Source: Glandiceps talaboti (lineage: Eukaryota; Hemichordata; Enteropneusta; Spengelidae). From it: a stretch of DNA of 64,000 nt. The first letter of the stretch is position 1. Every line of letters starts with the position of its first letter. The stretch is taken from assembly GCF_964340395.1 (NCBI RefSeq), contig NC_135559.1:6803259-6867258 (forward strand), read 5' to 3'. Shown here one piece after another: positions 24,801 through 27,800 of the stretch. Made by a program: the position numbers and the translations under genes. The notes under the pieces are model-generated. The model ran no database searches and had not been told where the DNA came from. It saw only the letters and a program-made list of their open reading frames with translations.

Positions 24801-27800
24801 AGTCATTTCACGATTTCAATTGAGCCAATGTATTCTATTGATAAATTAATTATCGACACCCTTAATGTTGTGTGTTAAATTATGTAATCAGAAAAAAGTG
24901 GTGAAGATGCGATATAACCTCAATGATGTGGCAAATATGGCCACCATTGAAGGCAGCGATGAATATCACCGATATGTAGGAACTTGACGAGAGGGATGTA
25001 GCTAATTTTAGTAATAAGTAACAGCTAAAATTGGAAAAGTAGGCAGCAATGTATATATGAGGGAAACCCTTGAATCTGCCCAGCAATGGATATAAAGTGG
25101 TTGAAACAAAGAATTTTTAAACATAAATTCCTGAAATGGTAGTCAGCAAAAAACTGGAGAGTAATGAGTTGTTTTCGCTGGCTACCAGCCCCTATTGCTG
25201 ACTAAGTACAGAGATTGAAATGACCATAATTCTCACCTTGTTGGATTTCGTTTATCTTCTTCTGATATCAGAAACCATACAAACTCTGAATAGCTCATTC
25301 TTTCTGTTGAATCTCCTTGGTTTCGACTTCTGAATTCAAATCAATACACATGAACAATGCTATTTAGAACTGTAGTCATAGTTACATGGAATTTCAAAAC
25401 TTGTCTCTACATAGTTGGCAACAAGAGGGCAGTATATATATTATATATATAAAGTAGGCAAACTCAGCTATTCAAATTTGTTAACCAAAAGAGGGCGCTA
25501 TATACCATATGGGTAAACTCGGTCAAACCAATTAGAAGACTTCAAAAAGTACAAATCAGCATAATTTGTTTCAGATTTGACATAATGTGCCACCTTTACA
25601 CTTTAATATTGCCAGAATCAAAACAAAACAAGTATTATTTTTACCTCTCAAAATATGGTTCTGAGTTGCAATCTAAAACCTAAATCAAGTTTTAATCTTT
25701 ACGGCCTGAATATGGGTTTTGCAGACCAAGGTTGTAAGGCGGAAGGGCCTGCCATAAAGGTTTCACATATAACCCCATGTAGTGGCACGGAAATATCATT
25801 TACATCACATGTTCACTTAAATTGGCAGTGAAATAATTTTATTCACAAAAATGTAAAAATAGTGTAGAAATTAACAAAGTCAAATCACTGAGCGGACAGA
25901 CATCGATATCACATACCTCATGTGCAAATGCCCATATTAGGGCAATGATATATTAATATTCATAATGACATCACATACCTTGTGACAGCACCAGAAAATA
26001 TCCTATCAATCATCCTGGATGACACAGCTACAGAGTTAAGACAAAATAATTGAGAGCTTGTCAGTCATTTTAGACGGTGTAACTAGGGAGTTAAACCTGT
26101 CTATTATTTTAGATGCTATAGCTAGGGAGTCAAACCGGCCAATCATTCCAGCAGATGTTAAAATGAAGGAGTACATTCCGGCACTCACAATGGGTGATAT
26201 TCTAGCGCTAGGGAATAAAAGGTGTCAATCATTGTTGGTGAGGTAACTTTAAAGGAGAACCTGTCAATCATTCTGGCTTCTATTGCTAGGTAGTAAAACC
26301 ATATTTGGTAAGCATTGGGAGTAAACTATGTCAATCATGCTGGCAGATACAGCTGGGGAGTAAAACCTGTCAATCATGCTGGCAGATGCAGATACAGCTA
26401 GGGAGTAAAACCTGTCAATCATGCTGGCAGAGAAAGCTAGGGAGTAAAACCTGTCAATCATGCTGGTAGATGCAGCTAGGGAGTAAAACCTGTCAATCAT
26501 GCTGGCAGATATAGCGAGGGAGTAAAACCTGTCAATCATGCTGGCAGAGAAAGCTAGGGAGTAAAACCTGTCAATCATGCTGGTAGAGAAAGTTAGGGAG
26601 TAAAACCTGTCAATCATGCTGGTAGATGCAGCTAGGGAGTAAAACCTGTCAATCATGCTGGCAGATATAGCGAGGGAGTAAAACCTGTCAATCATGCTGG
26701 TAGATACAGCTCGGAAGTAAAACCTGTCAATCATGCTGGCAGAGAAAGCTAGGGAGTAAAACCTGTCAATCATGCTGGCAGATACAGCTAGGGAGTTGAA
26801 CATGTCAATCATTCTGGCATATATACATGTACCTAGGGAGTAAAATCCATCGAACTATAATGATTATCTAATATGTTTGAGCACTTTCACTGAAGAAAGT
26901 CAAATTACCCTAAAAAGTCATTTACAATAACTAAAAGATAAAGTAACAAGTTTAATAAATAACTTACCATGGTCATTGTGTTTAGCTAAGTCTTTCTTAT
27001 CAATAAAAAGGTCATGGTCTGTGTCTAATTCCCAGAATTTACAATAAACTACATAGAAATGTTCATATGAAAAAAAGTCAGTAATCTGGTTTATATCTTC
27101 TTCTTCCTCCAGTACTTGAATTGTCTACAAACAAACAAACAACACACAACATCATCATCAAACTGATCACACACAGTTCTCTTATCAACCTCTCATCACA
27201 CAGTTCTCTTGTCATCAAACTCATCGCACACAATCCTCTTGTCATCAAACTCATCACACACAGTTCTCTTATCATCAAACTCATCACACACAATTCTCTT
27301 GTCATCAAACTCATCACACACAGTTTTCTTATCATCAAACTCATCACAAAAAGTTCTGACTTGTAATGTGAATTGTGTTTTTGTAGGCACAGTAAGCAGG
27401 TAAAAATCAACTAGATATTTTACCAGCTTATCAAGTATAGAGACCACCATGATATCAAAGTAAAAGAGTACAGCTACAAAATTGATAACAGACGTACAAG
27501 TTAGTAACCTTAATTCAACTCTACGGTGTCAATTTACACACTGCTGGCCAATCACCAAAACTTTATTTCTAGTTCTACAAATTAACCTCCATCTTAATTT
27601 CATACATGTAATTGAAATTGCTGGTCGATGAAACTAGTATTATTCTGTTGTCATGGATCCAATTGGACAGCGGGATGGGTGGGTTTGGATAATAATGAGA
27701 GGCCAGAAACTTTGATTTGAACAATGGCATTACAACTAGGGAACTTGGATATATTGTGCCTACCAATACTGTTCAACAAAAACAATGAAAACATGCTAAG

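Follow-up and report, generated by a model that had tools for sequence, protein, structure and literature searches.

A mirage-type minisatellite, probably seeded by an exon boundary, in a PP2A B'' gene of the hemichordate Glandiceps talaboti

In the hemichordate Glandiceps talaboti, an intron of a gene for a PP2A B'' subunit is largely occupied by a 39-bp minisatellite, and we consider it very probable that this array is a mirage, i.e. a minisatellite that arose from tandem duplication across the intron/acceptor/exon boundary of the adjoining 49-nt exon. Arrays of this kind are already known from amphioxus, where minisatellite-like tandem duplications across the 5' or 3' intron/exon boundary were described for Adh3, BflGb6 and BflGb9 (PMC3087553). 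The window, i.e. the whole stretch of 64,000 nucleotides that was analysed, lies on contig 12 of the 590-Mb genome searched, and positions refer to the window unless a contig or locus is named.

The host gene comprises 11 exons on the minus strand, running from 52553 to 22623, with AG and GT at all flanking intron ends and with agreeing phases. Its product is the PP2A regulatory subunit B'' (best solved-structure match by sequence 4i5j, E 9e-114), and on sequence grounds the host is a PP2A B'' (PPP2R3-type) gene, which carries the NCBI name 'subunit delta-like'. The 418-aa product of the 11 assembled exons is identical to part of the database protein P0121, the next database matches showing 84% and then, for Saccoglossus, 76%. 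P0121, which is a database model, joins the exons straight across the 940-nt intron, and the array is absent from it. The first-pass annotation had claimed a conserved 49-nt exon, and this exon is real: it is flanked by AG and GT, the phase is kept across the 11 exons and the product matches P0121. In an alignment it was conserved in the B'' alpha chain of 4i5j and in the Saccoglossus protein. Because 4i5j shares this conservation in its B'' alpha chain, the exon is older than the array. In the direction of transcription, the region is composed as follows:

26968..27124, minus strand: upstream exon of 157 nt, whose last base is the first base of an Ala codon
26028..26967, minus strand: host intron of 940 nt, of which array and spacers (26028-26845) make up 818 nt or 87%
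26801..26845, minus strand: distal edge unit u01 with a 6-nt insertion, 33/39 to the core
26327..26800, minus strand: homogenised core u02-u13, 35-39/39 to the consensus, with recurring I-A-F variant order
26299..26326, minus strand: partial or disrupted unit of 28 nt between u13 and u14
26057..26298, minus strand: decayed units u14-u18 on the exon side, 18-32/39 to the core, in six 39-nt slots with one 8-nt insertion
26060..26064, minus strand: candidate branch-point motif CTGAC (a prediction), lying in the exonic-sequence copy of u18 with its A at -34 relative to the authentic acceptor
26041..26056, minus strand: 16-nt stretch separating the last unit from the exon register, within the tract preceding the authentic acceptor
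26002..26040, minus strand: exon-boundary register homologous to the unit, 39 nt (13 intronic and 26 exonic), 30/39 to the core
26027-25979, minus strand: authentic 49-nt exon and likely source of the array; the exonic part of the unit corresponds to its first 26 nt

Tandem Repeats Finder (TRF) reported a period of 39 bp and 12.8 copies at 26317-26823, while fuzzy matches to ATGATTGACAGG run on through the decayed units into the exon, at 19 places including the exon itself and in steps of mostly 39 bp with a few longer ones. Altogether, 19 units lie upstream of the exon, each 39-bp unit corresponding to about 13 intronic and 26 exonic bases; the 29 exon bases per unit given in the first-pass annotation have to be corrected to these 26. 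The array adjoins the authentic boundary, as the units reach 26057 and only the 16-nt gap separates them from the exon register at 26040-26002. Compared with the core consensus, the six exon-proximal units score 32, 22, 18, 23, 29 and 27 of 39 (the 6-nt insertions in u01 and u12 are excluded from all identity counts), so that the units nearest the exon are indeed the most decayed, as had been described. The further statement that each unit keeps its acceptor holds only in part: AG is present at 15 of the 18 scored unit acceptors, but absent in u05, u07 and u09, and also in u16b, which lies outside the scored set.

The exon boundary agrees with the core consensus at 30/39 positions, with 21/26 in the exonic and 9/13 in the intronic part. 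Elsewhere in the window the best score was 24/39 (126,985 other positions, both strands), and a score of 30 was never reached when the exon 39-mer was shuffled 200,000 times at constant composition, which places the similarity of unit and exon far above that of shuffled sequence. The result was weaker when only the first 26 nt of the exon were aligned, with gaps, to the intron: the score of 27 equals the maximum of 27 in 3000 shuffles. Among the 22 exon-edge probes of the gene, only this acceptor matches above 24 within 3 kb, the other 21 staying at or below 24 at this distance and reaching at most 26 when the whole window is considered. Among the 47 TRF rows whose period is at least 20, this array scored 36, on the same strand and against its own neighbour, versus at most 27 in 60 shuffles of the exon; one other row exceeded its shuffles, by a single point (20 versus 19). 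The 30-bp array at 27154-27357, which lies beside the preceding acceptor, was not accepted as a mirage, since it scored 16, less than the 18.6 that its shuffles reached on average. When three units (117 nt) were used as a query for the 590-Mb genome, eight matches were returned, all within this array, and no identical array was found elsewhere; since this search skips very common words, the absence of the array elsewhere is not proved by it. Altogether, a derivation of the array from the acceptor boundary of the 49-nt exon is supported by these comparisons.

Since the exon's state at columns 0, 9, 17, 26 and 35 of the unit is missing from all 19 units, a single founder is their probable ancestor. 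Three of these columns (17, 26 and 35) correspond to third positions of codons. Six of the seven edge or decayed units (u01, u14, u15, u16b, u17 and u18) have A at column 26, where four of the six codons encode arginine or lysine, while the 12 core units and u16a carry C. If the A at column 26 is taken as the older state, the founder would have had GTA, AGA and GAC where the exon has GTG, AGG and GAT, and all of these differences are synonymous. The core consensus, unlike this inferred founder, has since diverged further and differs from the exon at five exonic positions, two of them non-synonymous (AVSASMIDR versus AVSSRMIDR in the exon), and these five differences count against a seeding by the boundary. 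In our reading, the founder state may reflect how the exon looked when the array was seeded, or close to that time. Within the core, the variants recur in order (I, A and F types), which is a sign of amplification in blocks of several units.

In the proposed course of events, the boundary of the 49-nt exon, with intron end, acceptor and exon start, would first have been duplicated in tandem. As the copies would have come to lie on the intron side, the mRNA would stay the same provided that splicing uses the last, authentic AG. Such a boundary duplication would be tolerable because the extra copy sits in the intron, while a wholly exonic duplication would alter the protein. Copies of one founder would then have multiplied to about 19 units, presumably by slippage or unequal exchange. 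The exon-proximal units, not reached by homogenisation, would have decayed; the core would have been homogenised and amplified again. This agrees with the view of the first-pass annotation that an ancient exon-boundary duplication was later re-amplified, a view supported by the homology, the decayed exon-proximal units and the homogenised core. The units would act at most as competing acceptors, and purifying selection would be expected on the exon and not on them. Most likely the array is a neutral by-product that is spliced out at the authentic acceptor, where both the neutrality and the sole use of the authentic AG in RNA are presumed.

A different role, which we regard as unlikely, would be that the units are splicing elements composed of YTNAY, a pyrimidine run and AG, with u18 providing the branch point and the copy number tuning the inclusion of the exon. 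TTGAC, which stems from the exonic ATGATTGA, is found at -18 of the unit acceptor in 14/18 scored units; however, these copies represent a single event of inheritance, and three of the 14 belong to units that lack AG. The pyrimidine content of the unit acceptors (8-12 of 16) lies inside the span of 7-13 seen at the 11 real acceptors. For the authentic acceptor, the sole YTNAY between -15 and -45 is the CTGAC at -34 in the last unit, u18, but such a motif is common, being present at this distance in 10/11 real acceptors. Most core units have another AG 14 nt upstream, compared to an AG-free tract of 29 nt at the authentic acceptor. The idea that the authentic acceptor is marked by the longest AG-free tract had to be rejected, as the tracts of u14, u16a and u17 are longer. 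Therefore, the tract length alone cannot predict the choice of the acceptor.

The divergence of the units bears on the same role. The 25-nt block ATGATTGACAGG+TTTTACTCCCTAG resembles a 3' splice site; over the six decayed units it showed 35/150 mismatches versus 48/84 in the rest of the unit (Fisher p 4e-7), and 24/125 versus 38/70 when u16a was left out. With or without u16a, it ranked first of the 39 cyclic 25-column windows, i.e. as the least diverged. In the core, by contrast, the block ranked merely 10/39 (10/275 versus 16/154 mismatches, p 0.01). It might be that this splice-like block is constrained instead of neutral, but this is only suggestive, because the units share their ancestry and most of the slots were recognised by ATGATTGACAGG itself. 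A use of unit acceptors as decoys is possible. Skipping of the 49-nt exon, as the tuning of its inclusion would involve, would shift the reading frame.

It is highly improbable that the array is a coding minisatellite, whose spliced-in units would add 13-residue repeats beside the EF-hand region. The unit length of 39 bp does correspond to 13 codons, and the open frame of more than 180 codons reported in the first-pass annotation exists, comprising 196 codons. It is, however, not continuous with the frame of the exon and is uninformative, since at least one of the six frames was open in 97% of tandemised random intron 39-mers and in 99% of shuffled units; openness is thus expected by chance and provides no evidence for coding. 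An unrelated 39-bp array on contig 4 with 123 copies (IAIQNSVIDELY...) is even open for 1622 codons. Kinship with this peptide array was rejected, as its DNA unit is unrelated. The contig 4 array lies at 1339659-1344473 (L019, 1160-5974) and adjoins a 38-bp array of 31 copies.

When read in the spliced frame, each of the 18 unit acceptors that were tested runs into a stop before the authentic exon; three acceptors of this set lack AG, and u16b does not belong to it. Among the GT sites in the array, CAG|GTTTTA (11) and GCT|GTATCT (4) are the commonest, and only two of the 38 GT sites of the intron, one of them within the array at 26188, reach the donor score of 7 that is the lowest among the 11 real donors. 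None of the possible cassettes keeps the frame, neither with the core GTs (0/77 for CAG|GTTTTA and 0/31 for GCT|GTATCT) nor with the GT at 26188 (0/16), giving 0/124 in total. A protein search with the 196-aa translation of the array gave no match at E<=10, with 7998 candidates scored, Pfam gave two matches for the array frame, both below the curated cut-offs, and, as described, P0121 does not contain the array. Since the unit acceptors lead to a stop and the cassettes do not hold the frame, an addition of residues near the EF-hand region is very unlikely, and the in-frame extra exon that had been suggested was rejected.

Apart from the array, the window contains an open frame of 238 codons on the plus strand (43909-44625), which lies in a 20-kb intron on the opposite strand and possibly represents a nested gene. 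By eye, its start resembles a signal peptide, and the frame comprises acidic repeats of eight residues; Pfam gave no family for the 233 aa that begin with its first ATG. At 50550-50800 on the minus strand, a tRNA-like A-box and B-box can be seen by eye, perhaps belonging to a tRNA-derived SINE, while a tRNA scan of the window with ARAGORN gave none.

That the likeness of exon and unit is a coincidence, i.e. that an ordinary intron minisatellite ends by chance in an acceptor-like site, can be given hardly any credence: minisatellites are indeed dense here (1.2-2.5 loci per 10 kb; 16 loci in the 64-kb window and 26 in 220 kb of its flanks, counting periods of at least 20 with at least three copies) and the intronic 13 nt alone are unremarkable (606/200,000 shuffles reach their score, and the 16-nt score is reached at 11 window positions), but the exonic 26 nt alone score 21 compared to a background maximum of 18 (127,014 positions) with 0/200,000 shuffles reaching 21, the strand and the register of the boundary are shared with the exon, and the decayed units are contiguous.

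With the seeding by the exon boundary as the preferred explanation, the array can be compared to the mirages of amphioxus. These are described as homogenised inside and diverged at the edges, with many units keeping AG or GT and with regular splicing reportedly unaffected (PMC3087553, PMC3902484). Units of 10-72 bp are given for Adh3 in these citing papers (PMC3087553, PMC3902484), and a TnC mirage as well as similar imperfect repeats in PGBD5 are reported in a second amphioxus study (PMC3902484). The same features are found here: a minisatellite-like tandem array (39 bp, 19 units), a unit that crosses the intron/exon boundary and whose length lies within the Adh3 range as cited, an authentic boundary that forms one copy of the adjoining array, a homogenised core with diverged edges (as a pattern only: core 35-39, exon-proximal 18-32, distal 33), and an AG in many but not all units (15/18). 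Unlike in amphioxus, the host is a hemichordate and not a cephalochordate, about 19 units with spacers occupy 87% of a 940-nt intron, and a broad decayed zone separates the core from the exon.

In human paralogues from segmental duplications, minisatellites with units of about 30 bp at exon-intron boundaries can alter splice patterns; these repeats are reported to be recent and about half of them to be coding, while repeats at a boundary reportedly give rise to novel introns (PMC2812944). In contrast to the human repeats as described there, the exon and its junction are unchanged here and the copies are intronic. Tandem genomic duplication has reportedly also been linked to intron gain in the potato RdRp (PMC4974935), and in the model of Rogers as cited in PMC3087553. 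A short duplication that carries splice signals is common to these accounts and to the present array; however, compared to the potato case as reported, an existing intron was filled here and no new intron arose. A literature search for mirages by name gave matches only for amphioxus, the search being partly restricted to amphioxus, and no hemichordate mirage was found by title or start of abstract, in a search outside of which most subscription papers lie.

Two more mirages were observed among control exons of the same genome, both of the donor type:

L042 3555-3873, contig 19, downstream of the dynein exon 4035484-4035726: second mirage, at a donor boundary
L024 8131-8468, contig 12, about 6748131-6748468: third mirage, at a donor boundary

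For the dynein heavy chain control, 30 of 85 PF08393 matches, in six genes, were tested. 29 of these 30 exons score at most 24/39, and one (contig 19, 4035484-4035726) scores 32. The end of this exon, TGTGTACAAGAACACATGATTAAG (CVQEHMIK), together with its donor is the first of six 41-nt repeat copies, the other five being 61-73% alike at spacings of 43-102 bp, mostly 43-45. TRF did not detect this array. The exonic 26-mer compared with the intron gave 29, which was reached by none of 3000 shuffles, while the other 26-mers of the exon gave at most 16.

The codon-bias control included 42 of 65 segments in 220 kb around the window, not all of which are real exons; segments with a score below 8 or with the WMDGWMDG repeat were excluded. 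The top segment, with a score of 37, is a calmodulin-like exon ending in GGTAGAGTCAGTTATGATG|GTATGT, followed by repeats of about 41 bp, most of which keep GTAT at the donor position. TRF described an array of 41 bp and 7.4 copies across this exon/donor boundary (L024, 8131-8427; exon end 8150), and the repeats span 8152-8468 of a 376-nt intron. The exonic 20-mer alone is weaker here, with a score of 26 that 2/3000 shuffles reach and with other exon windows at up to 23. Both the dynein and the calmodulin-like exon pairs join correctly over their introns, the PF08393 and EF-hand matches spanning the joins.

Seven other codon-bias segments score at least 29, and six of them look like coding or simple repeats, judging by their letters: a simple repeat (L034), a self-similar coding region (two segments, L038) and internal homology of EF-hands (L025, L026 and L027). 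The segment near 5878 of L020 (5798-5940) has a weak coding-like edge with a 29/39 match about 80 bp upstream; it is AT-rich and unexplained. Several calmodulin-like genes appear clustered on one side of the window, as seen from the codon-bias segments (L020-L027, contig 12, 6700001-6780000).

Altogether, two mirages were found among 72 control exons or coding-like segments, while random seeding predicts 0.5-2.1 boundary arrays per 71 exons in a rough comparison of small counts, one of the two mirages (the dynein array) having escaped TRF. The observed number matches this expectation without any preference of the seeds for exon edges. On this view, mirages would be what can be seen of a more general process, one that is likely wherever short tandem duplications occur often. 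By span, boundary copies account for 87% and 84% of two introns and for about 63% of a third. That exon-edge copying is a steady source of intron sequence in hemichordates, with the splice signals of the copies being usable and coding letters of an exon turning into branch points or alternative sites for that exon, we consider unlikely.

The presence of three mirages in one hemichordate genome, two of them from a small control set, suggests that such arrays are no peculiarity of cephalochordates. The copying of exon edges may be a general route by which repeat-rich genomes build their introns. A testable rule is that the frequency of mirages should track the product of minisatellite density and unit length. 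Such arrays may also retain traces of the state that the exon had at the time of copying. As a reservoir of ready-made splice sites, mirage arrays may serve for studying the growth and gain of introns.
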